64,000 nucleotides of DNA from Acidobacteriota bacterium (GTDB taxonomy: Bacteria > Acidobacteriota > Terriglobia > UBA7540), in NCBI GenBank assembly GCA_902812465.1, contig CADDZE010000007.1, positions 1 through 64,000 of the forward strand, given 5' to 3'. The notes beneath the pieces were generated by a model. The model saw nothing but the letters and a program-made list of their open reading frames with translations, did not search any database and was not told the origin of the DNA. This document shows positions 2 to 63,194 of the stretch, piece by piece; within the stretch, counting starts at the first letter, position 1; the number at the start of each line of letters is the position of its first letter. The translations under genes were made by a program, and so were the position numbers.

Positions 2-2875
2 CGACGGGATTTGATCATCGATCCGGTGCTGCTCTACTCGACGTACCTGGGGGGGAGCGGTGGGGACGTGGCGTATGGCCTTGCCGTCGACAGTTCCGGC
101 AATACCTACATCGCTGGGATCACCAACTCGACCGATTTCCCGACCACCTCTGGTGTCAAGCAGACGAAGAGCGGTGGCGCCGGCGACGCCTTTGTGACGA
201 AGCTCAATTCCACTGGCACAGCGCTGGTTTGGTCAACCTATCTGGGCGGCTCGGGAGCGGATAGTGCCGCCAGTGTGGCGATTGATTCCGCGGGCGATGT
301 GTTTGTCACCGGCACGACCAACTCGGCCGACTTTCCTGTTGCCCCCAATTCGGCACAATCGCAAGCCTTTCAAGCCGTCTATGGCGGCCAGGGCGATGCC
401 TTCGTCGCGGAGCTTTCCAGCAACGGTGCTTCTCTGGTGTACTCGTCCTACCTGGGCGGGAGCGGCGCGGACTTCGGCCAGGCCATCGTCGTCGACTCCA
501 CGGGTAACGCTTATGTGACCGGCTCAACGCAGTCCGCGGATTTTCCGATTCCGCCAGGAACGACGCCCTATCAGTCAACCCTGCAGGGCGCATCCGACGC
601 GTTCGTGGCCAAGGTCAATTTCTCCGGCACGGCCCTGGTCTACTCGACTTACCTTGGGGGGTCGCAGGCCGATACAGGCCAGGGCATCAAGGTGGATAGT
701 GCGGGGAACACTTATGTGAGCGGGTACACATTTTCGACGGATTTTCCGACGCTGAACCCGATCTACGGTTCGAACGCTGGCGACGCGGACGCGTTCGTCA
801 CCGAGGTTAACCCGAGTGGCTCCGGTTTGGTTTTCTCCACCTACCTCGGCGGCCAGGGACGCGATCGTGCCTTTGGACTAGCTCTCGACAGCACCGGTAT
901 TTACGTCGCCGGTGACACTCAGTCCGCGGATTTTCCCCTCACACCGGGTGTGTTTCAGAGCACTTACAGCGGCAATGGCGACGCTTTTGTCGCCAAGCTG
1001 AGCCCTTCCGGCACGACCCTGCTTTACTCGACCTTCATCGGAGGCAGCGGCGTCGACCAGGCCAACGGGATTGCAGTTGATTCGTCCGGGAACGCGGCCG
1101 TGGTAGGTTTTACTCAGTCCAGCAACTTTCCCACGGTGAATCCCCTGCAATCCATTTTGGGGCTCACCGGCGGTGGCTCGTGCGGAGCGAACCCTTGCGC
1201 GGACGCCTTTGTCGTCAAGCTCAACGCTTCGGGCAGCCAGGCTGCCTATTCGACCTATCTGGGCGGCAGTGGAGCCGACTTTGGCCAGGCAGTAGCGGTG
1301 GACAGCTCGGGCGATCCTTACGTGGCTGGCAGCACTTCCTCTAACAATTTCCCCGCGGTCGCCGGGGCCTACCAGGGAACTCTTGCCGGGGTGGCCGGCA
1401 ATGCTTTTGTAGCGAAGATTGATCCGGCGGATTCGCCCGCTATCGCCCTCTCTCCGTCCAAACTCAATTTCGGAAACCAGACAATCAACGTGAAGAGTCC
1501 CGCTCTCGCGGTTACTGTCATCGACGCCGGCAGCGCGCCTCTGACTATTACCTCCATTACGCCGCCCAGCAGTAATTTTGCCGAAACGGACAATTGCATT
1601 GGCACAGTAGCGCCGCGGGGCGGCACTTGTACCATCAACGTGACGTTCACCCCAACGTCGACCGGCGCGGTGACTGACCGGTTTTCCATCGCCGACAACG
1701 CGGCCAACAGCCCACAGACCTTCACCGTGACCGGTACAGGAGTGACCCAAGCCACCTCGGTTACGCTGGCACCGACCAGCCTGGTTTTCGGCAATCAGAT
1801 GGTGGGAACGGTCAGCGCGGCACAGATGGTGACCATTACCAACACAGGTTCCGCCACGCTCGACATCACTTCCATCAGTACCAGCGGCGATTTCTCCCAG
1901 ACTAACACTTGCTCAGCTCTCAACAACGTGCTCAATCCTGGCCAGAGTTGCTCAGTGAGCGTGACGTTTGCACCCACGGCCACCGGCAGTCGAACCGGCA
2001 GCCTGACCGTCAGTGACAACGCTACCGGCAGCCCGCAGAGCGTGGCCCTGTCGGGAACCGGACTGGCAGTTTTCTCGCTATCTTCCGGTAGCCCGGCGGT
2101 CTCGACGGTCATCGGTTCAACCTCGGTGAACTTTACGGTCTCCGCTACTGCCGCCAGTGGCTTCAGTGGAAGTATTACGCTGTCGTGCCCTACCGGCCTC
2201 ACGTGCACTTTTAGCCCCAGTTCCATATTTGCCGGGCAGAGCAGCACGCTGACCGTGAGCGGGCTTTCTACTTCGACGCCGAATCCCTATAACTTCACGA
2301 TCAGCGGCACCAGCGGATCGCAAACCGCTACGCTCAATCTGACGATTCTCTTTCAAACCTTTACCCTGTCGGTGACCCCTGCGCTCAACACCATCGTACC
2401 CGGGGCCAGCGCCAACTACACGGTGCTGGTGACACCGGTGAACGGCTTCAAGCAGCAGGTTCAGATGAGCTGCACCAACCTACCAGCCGGGGCCACCTGT
2501 TCCTTCTCGCCCTCTGCGGTCACGCCCAACGGATCTTCCCCATCCACGGTGGGGCTCACCATCACAACTACTCAGGCTCTAGGCTTGGGGCGGCGAGTCG
2601 ACCCCCATCCACCCGGCGGCGTTTGGCTGCTTCTGGGCGGTCTCTGGCTAACGTTGTGCTTCGTCGACCGTCGATTCAAGGGACGGCTGGCGCTTGGCCG
2701 GAGCCTCCTCGCCGCGACGCTCCTGCTGGGGTTGCTTCTTGCGGCCAGCTGCCGGGGAATCAGTCCCCACACCTCGCCTACTCCGACCGGCAACTACATC
2801 ATCACGATCACTGGCACGCTCAGCTCGAATCCCGCTGTCCAAGTGACCACAACGGCGGACTTGTCGGTGACGTAG
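2..2875 (+). CDS. SBBP-repeat, HYDIN-like domain exported protein (5' truncated by window)
   Basis: The reading frame is open to the first bases of the window, so the N-terminus is missing; the TTG at 11 is not a convincing start because family members usually carry a long region before the first SBBP repeat. About seven SBBP-type beta-propeller repeats of 55-70 residues follow (each with a YSTYLGG-like start, a VDSxGNxYVxG centre and a DFP end), up to about residue 475. Two HYDIN/ASPM-like Ig domains follow (about 475-575 and 580-685, each with FGNQ and TGTG signatures), then two further Ig-like segments. Two hydrophobic stretches (about 870-885 and 896-913) interrupt the last Ig-like unit. 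Such proteins are common in Acidobacteriota and are presumed to be surface or secreted; no function is established. The call rests on clear repeat recognition. Confidence 0.85.
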   Translation, partial: RRDLIIDPVLLYSTYLGGSGGDVAYGLAVDSSGNTYIAGITNSTDFPTTSGVKQTKSGGAGDAFVTKLNSTGTALVWSTYLGGSGADSAASVAIDSAGDVFVTGTTNSADFPVAPNSAQSQAFQAVYGGQGDAFVAELSSNGASLVYSSYLGGSGADFGQAIVVDSTGNAYVTGSTQSADFPIPPGTTPYQSTLQGASDAFVAKVNFSGTALVYSTYLGGSQADTGQGIKVDSAGNTYVSGYTFSTDFPTLNPIYGSNAGDADAFVTEVNPSGSGLVFSTYLGGQGRDRAFGLALDSTGIYVAGDTQSADFPLTPGVFQSTYSGNGDAFVAKLSPSGTTLLYSTFIGGSGVDQANGIAVDSSGNAAVVGFTQSSNFPTVNPLQSILGLTGGGSCGANPCADAFVVKLNASGSQAAYSTYLGGSGADFGQAVAVDSSGDPYVAGSTSSNNFPAVAGAYQGTLAGVAGNAFVAKIDPADSPAIALSPSKLNFGNQTINVKSPALAVTVIDAGSAPLTITSITPPSSNFAETDNCIGTVAPRGGTCTINVTFTPTSTGAVTDRFSIADNAANSPQTFTVTGTGVTQATSVTLAPTSLVFGNQMVGTVSAAQMVTITNTGSATLDITSISTSGDFSQTNTCSALNNVLNPGQSCSVSVTFAPTATGSRTGSLTVSDNATGSPQSVALSGTGLAVFSLSSGSPAVSTVIGSTSVNFTVSATAASGFSGSITLSCPTGLTCTFSPSSIFAGQSSTLTVSGLSTSTPNPYNFTISGTSGSQTATLNLTILFQTFTLSVTPALNTIVPGASANYTVLVTPVNGFKQQVQMSCTNLPAGATCSFSPSAVTPNGSSPSTVGLTITTTQALGLGRRVDPHPPGGVWLLLGGLWLTLCFVDRRFKGRLALGRSLLAATLLLGLLLAASCRGISPHTSPTPTGNYIITITGTLSSNPAVQVTTTADLSVT

Positions 2876-3076
2876 GACTGAGGCGAAGGTCGGCCCACGT
2901 GGTGGGCGCAGCCGTCGATTCCTCTCAACCGCCCGGTTTGGCCACTACTCGGCGCTTGCTTGGCTGCTGCGCACTGGCGTACGCGAACTGGAGTAAGCCT
3001 GCCGGGTCAATCGAGCTGGAATTAAGCGTGCCGCTGCGCTATTATTACCAGCATCCTACGGGCGGGGGTGGGCAAC

Positions 3077-16362: not shown

Positions 16363-16836
16363 GGCCGCGCCTCGTTCCTGGAGGAAGCGAGGCTTGGGTG
16401 TTGACGGTACTTCAAATTACCTTTCCTCACCTGGTGTTTGGCTCTCTCGCCCGTCCCGCACTCCGGCCCACGACGGCCTTGGGTCGGACCAGCGGTAACT
16501 GCCCCATTCCAGGTTACTGCATTCGCAAATTGAAACCTACCGCCATTGCCGGCGGAACCAGTCACGCGCGGCCGGCAGTTTCCGGTGCTGGGGAAAACGA
16601 AACGGTTGCAATGTAGGCTTTGTATACTTTCCCGTGGTTTGTTTACCCCCCGTGACGGGGAAGGCCGCTCTGCAGAGGAAGAGTGTGCGGCAGAATGAGA
16701 TTTGACCAAACGAACCGGATATGTGCTTGAAAATAAAGGATCGGCTCTCCGAACAAGGACGCTTTCGATCCGGCCACTGGACGCAAGCACACAAGGCGCA
16801 ACGTTTGTCATAATGGTCGGGGATGGAAAGTCAGCG
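16363..16836. other. Divergent intergenic region holding copy A of a conserved motif
   Basis: About 470 bases between the lipoprotein gene (minus) and the TPR gene (plus). It must hold both promoters, though none could be assigned with confidence; a TATACT hexamer at 16623-16628 lacks a good -35. A short CCCCG-TGA-CGGGG hairpin is at about 16648-16660. The 38-nt conserved motif described separately lies at 16708-16745. Confidence 0.5.
16691..16773 (+). repeat. Conserved non-coding motif, copy A
   Basis: Bases 16708-16745 match 61917-61954 at 37 of 38 positions, and weaker similarity continues about 15 bases upstream. The core includes AACGAACCGGATATGTGC and then a purine-rich AAAGGATCGGC. 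In this copy CCGGAT (16715-16720) is complementary to ATCCGG (16768-16773). It lies on the plus strand about 90 bases before the TPR-gene start. It could be a leader RNA element, a protein-binding site or a small mobile repeat; orientation is assumed. Confidence 0.6.
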
Positions 16837-18267
16837 ATGGGATTGCAGGCTGTAGCACCGCCTTGGGCGAACCTCCGAATCGCCAGAAGGGCGACCGCGG
16901 TCTTGCACCTAGGCGTTCTGCTGCGCGGGTTCGTTTTAACCCTTGGTCTTGCCAGCCACACGCTGGCCTTGCCTCAGCGACCTGCGGCGGAGCAACCTGG
17001 GTCGCCGGAAATCGGCAATGCGTTGCTGGAGACGGCCCAAGGGGCGCTCAACCGGCACGACTACGTCAACGCCGCCACCGCACTGAAGCAGGTCGTCGCG
17101 CAAGACCCGCGCTCGGTCGCGGGATGGTTTAACCTCGGCTATGCCTATTCCGGCTTGGGCCAGAATGACGCAGCCGTGCGCGCGTATCAGAGGGCCATCG
17201 AGCTTGATCCCAACTTGTTCGAGGCGCGGATGAACCTGGGGATTCTCCTGCTTGAGGCCCAGCACCCGAATCAGGCGCTGGAGCAACTGCAAAGAGCTGT
17301 GGCGCTGAAGCCAGACCGTGCGACGGCCCACCTGTATTACGCCCGAGCGCTGTGGCTTGATGGCAAGGACGGCGAGGCGTTGGCTGAGTTCCGCGAAGCG
17401 TTGCGCCTCGACCCCAGCCTGGCCATTGCCCACTACGACATGGGACAGCTGGCCCTTTCAAGGAAACAATTTGCGGAGGCCCGTGCCAGCTTCGCGCAGG
17501 CGGTAAAGCTTGATCCTCACCTGGCGCAGGCGCGGTTAGGGTTGGCGCGGGCGGCCGAAGGGCTCCAGGACACGGCAGGGGCTGTCAATGCGCTGCGTGC
17601 CTATCTCGAGGTCCAGCCGCGCGACCAAGAAGCTCGCTTTCATCTGGCGCGCCTCTACCTGCAGCAGGGGATGAACGAAGAAGCTCTCAGCACCCTGGAG
17701 CAGATCTATCAAGCTAACCCGAAGCTCCCGGGTCTGGCCGCAGCGCTGGGAGACGTGCACGCCTTGCTGAAGCGCTACGCGGAGTCCGAGCGTTTTTACC
17801 GGGAGGCTTTGGCGGAGGCACCCCCCAATAGAAGCCCTTGGGAGGAATCCGACCTGCGGCGCGCGCTAGGACAAACTTTGCTCGATGAACACGCCCAGCT
17901 CGAAGCCGATGGCAAGGCGGACCAAGCGGCGACAAAGCTCGCCAGCGCAGAGAAAGAGTTCCGCCACGCCCTGCAGCTGGATCCTCACAATGCCGAGGCC
18001 GCCAAGGGGCTGGCTAGCAGCCTCTATCTGGAAAAGGGTTACGCTGAGGCGGTACCGATCATCGAAGGGCTCGTCCGCACCGGGAATGCGCCACCGGGAG
18101 TCTATTTCGTCCTGGCCACGTGTTACGACCACTTGCGCGACCGGCCGCGCGCTCTGGAAGCTTACGAAAAGTTCCTCAGCCTTGCCCCCGACCGTAACTC
18201 GGACCAGGTGTGGCAAGCCGAGCAGCGAGCGAAGCTGCTGCGTCGCGAACTCCACCGACAGCGGTGA
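16837..18267 (+). CDS. Exported tetratricopeptide-repeat protein
   Basis: About 476 aa from ATG 16837, which has GGAAAG upstream; ATG 16813 and the far upstream ATT/TTG codons lack a ribosome site. An N-terminal hydrophobic segment (about residues 22-45, ending near LALPQ) suggests a signal peptide. The rest is built of some ten TPR units, each about 34 residues with the GWFNLGYAYSGLGQNDAAV-type A helix and an AIELDP-type end (ELDPNLFEA, ALKPDRATA, RLDPSLAIA, KLDPHLAQA, QLDPHNAEA). TPR arrays mediate protein contacts; a periplasmic scaffold or assembly role is possible but nothing specifies the partner. Confidence 0.85.
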   Translation: MGLQAVAPPWANLRIARRATAVLHLGVLLRGFVLTLGLASHTLALPQRPAAEQPGSPEIGNALLETAQGALNRHDYVNAATALKQVVAQDPRSVAGWFNLGYAYSGLGQNDAAVRAYQRAIELDPNLFEARMNLGILLLEAQHPNQALEQLQRAVALKPDRATAHLYYARALWLDGKDGEALAEFREALRLDPSLAIAHYDMGQLALSRKQFAEARASFAQAVKLDPHLAQARLGLARAAEGLQDTAGAVNALRAYLEVQPRDQEARFHLARLYLQQGMNEEALSTLEQIYQANPKLPGLAAALGDVHALLKRYAESERFYREALAEAPPNRSPWEESDLRRALGQTLLDEHAQLEADGKADQAATKLASAEKEFRHALQLDPHNAEAAKGLASSLYLEKGYAEAVPIIEGLVRTGNAPPGVYFVLATCYDHLRDRPRALEAYEKFLSLAPDRNSDQVWQAEQRAKLLRRELHRQR

Positions 18268-61476: not shown

Positions 61477-62114
61477 AACCCAAATCCTCTGTGAATGGGG
61501 TGGGGGGCGTGAAACCGGGAGGAAAGCCAGTCCCAAACAGCCCTGCTACCCATTTTAAGCCGGAAACCAGCTTTCGTCGAGAGTGTGAGAACGACCCGGA
61601 CGACCCCGCCGCCGCAAACTGATTGGAACCTCGGGTGAACAAGACGGGTCACGGGCGCTCACACCGGTCTGTCGTATCGTCTACGGAGCCCAGAGCCTGC
61701 CTGTTACACGCGCTGAATCCGGCCTATCCTAACCACAGCGCAGCCTGAGACCAGATAAGCCCTCGCCTGGTGGCCAGACTTCCCTGCCTTGGGCTGAATG
61801 CGTTGTGTGTTTCGTTCCTGATGAGACAAAAGTCGACATTGTGGACACGGTATACGCGCGCCCCGGGGAGCTAGGGACGCGGCCCGAGCAGCAATGCAGC
61901 TGAGAGAGTTTCGACGAAACGAACCGGATATGTGCTTGAAAAGAAAGGATCGGCCCGGCGAAAGCTCGCTGATTTGCATCCGCCAGCGCGTCTCAGTCGG
62001 GAGCGTTATGCGGCTTTGCAAAGCTAAACAGGGGTGCCGGCGGGAGCAGTCACCCACACGCTGGACAGCCTCGCCCCCTTTTGACACAGGCCGCCCAGGC
62101 GGCGTACCGTGAAC
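61477..62114. other. Divergent intergenic region holding copy B of a conserved motif
   Basis: About 640 bases between efp (minus) and trpD (plus). The conserved motif copy B lies at 61917-61954. A TATACG at 61851-61856 lacks a matching -35. No credible gene was found in either direction. Confidence 0.45.
61898..61983 (+). repeat. Conserved non-coding motif, copy B
   Basis: Bases 61917-61954 match 16708-16745 at 37 of 38 positions. In this copy CCGGAT (61924-61929) has a partial complement ATCCGC (61978-61983) at nearly the same distance as in copy A. The motif lies about 160 bases before the trpD start on the same strand. See copy A for possible roles. Confidence 0.6.
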
Positions 62115-63194
62115 ATGTCAGGTATGAAGCTGATCATGGAGACCGTCCGCACGGCCACGGCAAGGATTCGCTGCGGTGAACACCTGAAGCGCGCGGAAGC
62201 ACGCGCGGTGATGCAACAGCTCCTCTCTGGCTCGGTGCCGGATGGGGAAATCGTTGAGCTGCTTGTGGCACTGCGCGACCGGGGCGAGCAGCCAGAGGAA
62301 CTGATCGGCTTTGCCGAGGTGATGCGCGCCCGGGCGGCGGAGCGGCTGGAGGAGGCCGGTGTCCGCCTGGAAAGCCTCGCCGACGGCGGTCCATTGCTCG
62401 ACACCTGCGGCACCGGCGGAGATGCTTGTGGCACATTCAACGTCTCGACGGCCACCGCGCTGGTGGCAGCGGCGGCGGGCGTGCGCGTTGCTAAGCATGG
62501 CAACCGGTCGATCTCCAGCCGCTGCGGAAGCGCGGACGTGCTGGAGGCGCTGGGTGTTGCCATCGAACTTCCTTTAGAGCGCATTCCGGAGTGTCTCGCG
62601 CGCACCGGCATGGTTTTCCTCTTCGCGCCCCACCTGCACGAGGCGATGAAGCACGTGATGCGCGCGCGGCGCAGCCTTAAAAGCAAAACAGTTTTCAACC
62701 TGCTGGGTCCGCTCACGAATCCGCTGGGGGCCGGCGTCCAGCTTGCCGGCGTCTACGATCGTGCGCGAACCTCCATGATGGCGGAAGCTCTCGCGGCCCT
62801 GGGGACGCGCCAGGCTTTCGTCGTCGCCGCGGAAGACGGCATGGACGAGATTTCCACCACCGGCCCGACGCAACTCTCGGAGAGCAGGAACGGGAAGGTG
62901 AGGACGTACCGTGTCGCACCTGAGGACTTTGGATTGAGCTGCGCCCCGGCTGGGGTGCTCGCCGGAGGGGAGGCGGCGGAAAACGCTGCGATCCTCCGCC
63001 GCGTTCTCGATGGCGAGCCGGGCCCGCACCGCGACGTGGTGCTGGCGAATGCGTCCGCCGCGCTGGTCGTGGCAGGAGCCGTTTCGAACTTTAGCGAAGG
63101 AGTTGAACTAGCCGCCACGACAATCGATTCCGGCGCGGCGCGGCGCACCTTAGTCCGCCTGGTGGAATTCACCCAGAAGCACGGCGCCCGTTGA
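62115..63194 (+). CDS. trpD: Anthranilate phosphoribosyltransferase TrpD
   Basis: A 359-aa TrpD from ATG 62115. The phosphoribosyl-diphosphate loop is DTCGTGGDACGTFNVSTATA near 97 and VAKHGNRSISSRCGSADVLE near 127. MFLFAPHLHEAMKHVMRAR and FNLLGPLTNPLGAGVQLAGV follow, with GMDEISTTGPT near 237. It adds phosphoribose to anthranilate in tryptophan synthesis. No other trp gene is seen. Confidence 0.96.
   Translation: MSGMKLIMETVRTATARIRCGEHLKRAEARAVMQQLLSGSVPDGEIVELLVALRDRGEQPEELIGFAEVMRARAAERLEEAGVRLESLADGGPLLDTCGTGGDACGTFNVSTATALVAAAAGVRVAKHGNRSISSRCGSADVLEALGVAIELPLERIPECLARTGMVFLFAPHLHEAMKHVMRARRSLKSKTVFNLLGPLTNPLGAGVQLAGVYDRARTSMMAEALAALGTRQAFVVAAEDGMDEISTTGPTQLSESRNGKVRTYRVAPEDFGLSCAPAGVLAGGEAAENAAILRRVLDGEPGPHRDVVLANASAALVVAGAVSNFSEGVELAATTIDSGAARRTLVRLVEFTQKHGAR

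Follow-up and report, generated by a model that had tools for sequence, protein, structure and literature searches.

A repeat family dispersed between genes of Terriglobia (Acidobacteriota), with a core conserved as primary sequence

Two copies of the repeat in the window

The stretch of acidobacterial DNA analyzed here (64,000 nt, referred to as the window) contains two copies of a short conserved sequence. As the initial annotation had described, each lies in a divergent intergenic region; the gene upstream of it is on the minus strand and the gene downstream on the plus strand. The gene downstream of copy 1 encodes a TPR protein, and that downstream of copy 2 a trpD-type glycosyltransferase of family 3. 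The following parts were recognized:

approx. 16600..16655, no strand assigned: array with 9-bp periodicity preceding copy 1, with units like TTTGTATAC; a family-level signal, placed by eye in the single copy
16700..16744, plus strand: core of copy 1 (ATTTGACCAAACGAACCGGATATGTGCTTGAAAATAAAGGATCGG); model match of 62.4 bits, E 8.6e-17, and column profile of 71 copies
16702..16910, plus strand: 5' part of the mechanical ORF 16702-18267, overlapping core 1 and starting at a TTG within it
approx. 61830..61862, no strand assigned: array with 9-bp periodicity preceding copy 2 (ATTGTGGACACGGTATACG); a family-level signal, placed by eye in the single copy
61909..61953, plus strand: core of copy 2 (TTTCGACGAAACGAACCGGATATGTGCTTGAAAAGAAAGGATCGG); model match of 58.0 bits, E 2.1e-15, and column profile
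62081..62110, plus strand: sigma-70-like site TTGACA-N18-TACCGT; pattern match immediately preceding trpD, 172 bp 3' of the position where core 2 starts

The reported identity of bases 16708-16745 and 61917-61954 at 37 of 38 positions, both on the plus strand, was confirmed. This match is far beyond chance: about 6e-12 pairs of 38-mers with at most one mismatch are expected, and the 19-base core, with up to three mismatches, has exactly two matches in the window versus 0.03 expected from shuffles. The weaker similarity noted directly upstream is also real and has two parts, namely, WTTTGAC abutting the 38-mer and, beyond it, a degenerate 9-bp periodic array. The complement of CCGGAT that had been proposed to follow the motif is indeed present as ATCCGG in copy 1 and partially in copy 2, but it is not a feature of the family. 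ATCCGG is found in the corresponding interval in one of 71 copies, the same as in control windows, and the pairing was rejected as a chance occurrence.

The TPR ORF (16702-18267) begins at a TTG inside core 1, so that an automated annotation pipeline might translate the repeat in error. Its 5' part is probably not translated, since the same frame is stopped in 18 of 71 copies of the repeat and the start of the TPR gene is placed by codon scoring at approximately +204 relative to the core. The sigma-70-like site before trpD overlaps the earliest possible starts of this gene (62109 and 62115); thus, either translation would begin later, near 62124, or the match is false.

A repeat family in the source genome

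The genome from which the window derives (G000) is a 98.6% complete draft. With three mismatches allowed, the exact form of the window copies has five matches in this genome and a looser pattern has 23, versus none for a reversed-pattern control. A sequence-only covariance model was built from 21 copies, and the search of the full genome that the initial annotation had suggested recovered 77 copies at E<1e-6, a lower bound in a draft whose contigs break at repeats. The two sites originally reported were thus a gross undercount. In the column profile, for which 71 copies were extracted with their flanks, the core WTTTGACSAAACGAACCGGATATGTTRTTGAAAA covers about 34 nt, with an information content close to 2 bits at each position. 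CAAAnGT stands before it, and a variable tail, ACAAAGGNTCGG or AATCGAGGNCGG, comes after it. Homology is confined to approximately -10..+45, and no inverted ends were seen by inspection. Neither a larger transposon around the copies nor random placement within genes, both of which the initial annotation had cautioned about, was found: the copies lie outside any larger transposon and between genes.

A second subfamily, AACGAAGCCACCAAGTTRTTGAAAAYACG, was recovered with the looser pattern at about 19 sites of the same genome, none of them within the 64-kb window. Its copies are often in tandem, two or three of them about 80-240 nt apart. This subfamily sits between co-directional genes, with both neighbors on the plus strand in 13 of 14 cases.

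Gene context, promoters and the upstream array

Neighboring genes were taken from a simple ORF caller with codon scoring, without curation. In the source genome, the next gene is on the same strand as the repeat in 64 of the 68 copies with a known downstream neighbor (P ~6e-15; four copies form two close pairs sharing a gene), and the upstream neighbor has either orientation. The downstream genes are the first genes of unrelated units and include aroA, trpD, leuA, thiC, mutS, uvrC, relA/spoT, tig, glgA, a sucC-type gene, genes for TPR proteins and others. These genes are functionally unrelated, and almost none is common to the copies of genus g10, where two weak protein matches were seen; there is thus no conserved regulon. 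A regulon shared between genera was rejected, as none was seen.

Promoters were called solely as matches to the sigma-70 consensus in the sequence. By this measure, 17 sites fall into the +100..+149 bin of the source genome copies, versus 0-3 in the other plus-strand bins. Strict sites are located at +97 to +138 and at +169 to +172 of the core, and none was found in 70 regions upstream of it. Divergent promoter-like sites are present on the minus strand at -150..-250. The degenerate periodic array 5' of the core has a 9-bp unit of approximately TTGTANRCA. At the family level, lag-9 identity at -100..-40 is 0.351 versus a background of 0.25, and the 9-mer model scores 1012 versus 358-401 for shuffles. 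When free 9-mer arrays were sought by pattern, only two weak matches resulted, because the array is too degenerate.

The core is conserved neither as a peptide nor as a fold

Stops occur within 42 nt of the core in 66, 70 and 18 of 71 copies in the three frames, respectively. The last of these frames (TTG-ACG-AAA-CGA-ACC, encoding KRTGYVIENKGS) has codon-like variable positions; a coding peptide was rejected, given that TAA or TAG interrupts it in the 18 copies. RNAalifold returned an empty consensus structure for the 71 copies, and the two window copies are predicted to fold no more stably than shuffled sequences (z = +0.3 each). Compensatory changes, which the initial annotation had proposed to examine, point to no conserved secondary structure. 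A single column pair in a candidate hairpin 5' of the core, CAAAN-GTNN-NTTTG, is weakly supported (30 of 71 copies paired versus 22.5 expected, P 0.02). Rfam 15 has no match to the repeat in the window, where it recognizes only a tRNA elsewhere; a search of 301 bases at E 10 gave one chance match, and a search across 17 element loci only a neighboring tmRNA. The tmRNA gene in question adjoins one of the copies in genome G025 (L183 2486-2852). In summary, the repeat is a dispersed intergenic family of Terriglobia with a core whose conservation is at the level of primary sequence.

In genome G014 (L366-L369), a variant carries an inverted complement of the core just upstream of its AACGAAGCCGCTAAG core and, unlike the copies of the source genome, is predicted to fold into a long hairpin (z -3.9). 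Since this predicted hairpin is strong, some lineages appear to have built structure around the core.

Distribution and anatomy in other genomes

When 84,980 species genomes were scanned with AACGAASCNNNNANGTYRTTGAAAAYAMA, 110 stretches were obtained. The 80 of these that were listed are all from Acidobacteriota, under the names Terriglobia, Bryobacterales, Solibacter, or plain Acidobacteria/Acidobacteriota. Among 2.9 million viral contigs, none contains an exact match, and a viral origin was rejected on this ground. Within the taxonomic family, the number of pattern sites ranges from none detected to about 60; diverged copies are present in family f5. The repeat thus appears to be dispensable, since several family members have no detectable copies, although absence in relatives is only indicative when the genomes are drafts or metagenome bins and the model (R1) is biased to the spelling of the source genome and of G009.

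The anatomy of the elements differs between genomes. In G009, a member of a sister genus, homology spans approximately -40..+160 and includes three to four core-like modules, with a near-perfect (TGGGACAAA)n array just upstream; elements of G025 likewise have three to four modules over about 200 nt. A promoter of the form TTGAC-N17/18-TAGYCT, often with an extended -10, is located at -95 or about -160 of the G009 cores. In 27 of 36 G009 copies, the same strand carries a match to the strict form TTGAC-N17-19-TANNNT upstream of the element, 23 of these with an extended -10; none of 35 copies has one downstream. Same-strand promoters are also present at -100..-400 in G025 and in named genomes. 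G009 copies with a convergent downstream gene have the promoter as well. Thus, the elements of G009, G025 and similar genomes are probably transcribed regardless of the direction of the downstream gene. The orientation bias is moderate in G009 (26/35) and absent in both G025 (7/16) and a mixed set of named genomes (53/98). The core lies upstream of the promoters in the source genome and downstream of them in the other genomes. This difference in order is awkward, being the main obstacle to one common mechanism.

All four model copies with the source genome spelling in G014 are held by a single contig, C5 (L106, L136), and the copies on other G014 contigs are spelled differently; C5 may be misbinned or acquired. 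In G017 (JACQNR), a repeat of about 250 nt with the ends TGAATATCAA...TTGATATTCA is positioned directly 5' of resident cores and carries its own copy of the core. It was found at L237 (~1900-2200) and L254 (~2600-2900, minus strand), and also at L224, L227, L274 and L218. Its position and its own core copy suggest that it may be a MITE targeting the core repeat.

Genome-specific spelling and concerted change

The copies follow the skeleton AACGAASC-NNNN-ANGTYRTTGAAAAYAMA, where each genome has its own typical letters in the NNNN part and in the tail. Three genomes of one sister genus, G009, G029 and G023, were compared by matching of flanks. Reciprocal pairing with element loci of G009 was obtained for 8 of 10 loci in G029 and for at least 15 of 30 in G023. 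Column 16 is C in seven of the eight paired G029 loci and G in all eight G009 partners. Likewise, columns 40-43 are of AAAT type in 14 of 15 G023 loci versus TCGG type in most of the G009 orthologs. Most other columns are alike between the three genomes at syntenic loci. Independent point mutation at each syntenic locus is implausible, and the concerted spelling could be explained by gene conversion, re-insertion, or selection through a shared factor. The fact that four neighboring letters switch together favors at least some conversion.

Possible functions of the repeat

The initial annotation had offered three explanations, namely, a structured leader RNA, a regulator-binding site and a small mobile repeat, and we prefer the second. 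Tentatively, the core is regarded here as the recognition sequence of a putative genome-specific trans-acting factor, placed at the starts of many unrelated transcription units and belonging to a dispersed repeat that evolves in concert. The candidate factor, most likely a protein, would read the core in a strand-aware manner and would act at these starts on either DNA or the nascent transcript. Coordinated changes of spelling would reflect co-evolution of the core with the factor, and recombination between copies would help the spelling to change together. A simple antisense RNA partner is unlikely, since all 54 sites of a 13-mer from the core in the source genome are copies of the element. 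With an exact 13-mer, no second site complementary to the core was found in this genome, and an antisense guide RNA encoded elsewhere in it was rejected. A bolder version of the recognition-site reading, which we consider doubtful, posits a phylum-specific recognition code. The non-palindromic skeleton of Terriglobia would carry in its four variable letters a dialect common to the whole genome; a fast-evolving trans-acting factor would read it at the starts of dozens of housekeeping transcription units, and the sites would be respelled together in place.

Of the rivals, a structured cis-regulatory leader RNA of riboswitch type is the most improbable and has been largely refuted. Most copies in the source genome do share the strand of the downstream gene, the pairing signal of the pre-core hairpin is compatible with a leader, and the G014 variant is strongly folded. 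However, shuffle-like folding of the window copies, the empty consensus structure, the unconserved CCGGAT complement and the silence of Rfam even at E 10, save for one chance match, led us to reject it, and the 77 copies precede unrelated genes, with promoters of the source genome located between core and gene. Multicopy non-coding RNA genes are a serious rival, although still a rather unlikely explanation. Each element would be, or derive from, a small unit with its own sigma-70 promoter, producing an unstructured A-rich RNA with several core motifs that could serve as a sponge or guide. The upstream same-strand promoters of G009 (27/36, none downstream), retained where the next gene is convergent, those of G025 and the named genomes, and the multiple modules of G009 and G025 all agree with such units. 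The source genome does not: its elements are short and none of the 70 upstream regions has a strict promoter. Furthermore, no terminator was recognized by eye, Rfam provides no match, and a genome with 40-80 paralogous RNA genes would be exceptional.

Also a serious rival, although rather unlikely in our judgment, is a selfish or neutral repeat that was amplified independently in different lineages, homogenized by gene conversion or re-insertion and tolerated between genes, with purifying selection producing the orientation bias. This would fit copies that are similar within and different between genomes, blocks of adjacent letters that switch jointly as under conversion, downstream genes that genera do not share, absence from some relatives, and contigs that end at the element in several assemblies, as they do at near-identical repeats. 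As for the small mobile repeat of the initial annotation, dispersal is borne out, but no terminal inverted repeats were noticed by inspection, no RAYT-type transposase (Y1_Tnp) was detected in the 98.6% complete source genome, and no exact copies were found in viral contigs. Moreover, positions are stable between sister genomes (the paired loci of G029 and G023 described above), and the strong orientation bias and promoter spacing of the source genome would require a separate cause. Syntenic placement combined with concerted change makes the family a natural test case for distinguishing gene conversion from co-evolution with a binding factor. Such a factor, if it exists, would be a novel global player in Acidobacteriota, a soil phylum that ranks among the most abundant and the least studied.

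Comparison with known repeats

To our knowledge, dozens of near-identical intergenic copies are rarely kept for long by bacterial genomes. DNA uptake sequences (DUS) are present in thousands of copies. Their dialects in Neisseriaceae co-evolve with a receptor (PMC3630211, PMC3868556). The acidobacterial repeat resembles DUS in having genome- or genus-specific dialects of one skeleton; however, it is 34-45 nt long rather than 10-12 nt, has tens of copies and is strictly intergenic. Known dispersed intergenic repeats also include REP/REPIN elements with their RAYT transposases (PMC3116915, PMC8049555). Shared features are tens to hundreds of short intergenic copies, a genome-typical sequence and long persistence. 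By contrast, the repeat described here is non-palindromic, has a core of about 45 nt and is strand-linked to genes in the source genome. No dyad indicative of a palindromic 20-30 bp unit was seen in the core consensus by inspection, nor is there a consensus fold. PF01797 (Y1_Tnp) has no matches in the source genome versus matches in 5 of 14 control genomes, and a REPIN/RAYT system was rejected for this 98.6% complete draft.

The TAACTGA direct repeats of Beggiatoaceae are tandem intergenic heptamers adjoining start codons (PMC4679880). Similar to the acidobacterial repeat, they occur between genes in many copies, preceding unrelated genes of which some are essential, and are suspected of a regulatory role through a binder, whereas the repeat studied here has a unique core of 34-45 nt far upstream of genes and a separate 9-mer array. 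Within the same phylum, the genome of Solibacter usitatus contains numerous short repeats, most of them under 50-100 nt, in families that were left unnamed (PMC3174227). Solibacter-1, a candidate non-coding RNA motif from this organism, is listed in Table 1 of PMC2864571. It is not in Rfam, and it is possible that it represents an earlier sighting of the repeat. We found no published description of the repeat family in the open literature. Thus, dispersed intergenic repeats are already known, and the present family differs in being non-palindromic, strand-linked in the source genome and concertedly respelled at syntenic loci.

The repeats also account for assembly breaks and spurious small ORFs in genomes of Acidobacteriota. 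Many contigs of related assemblies stop within about 150 bases of an element, indicating that the repeats break assemblies. Examples are G023 C27:62, C52:56 and C58:56, G009 C13:65 and several named contigs.
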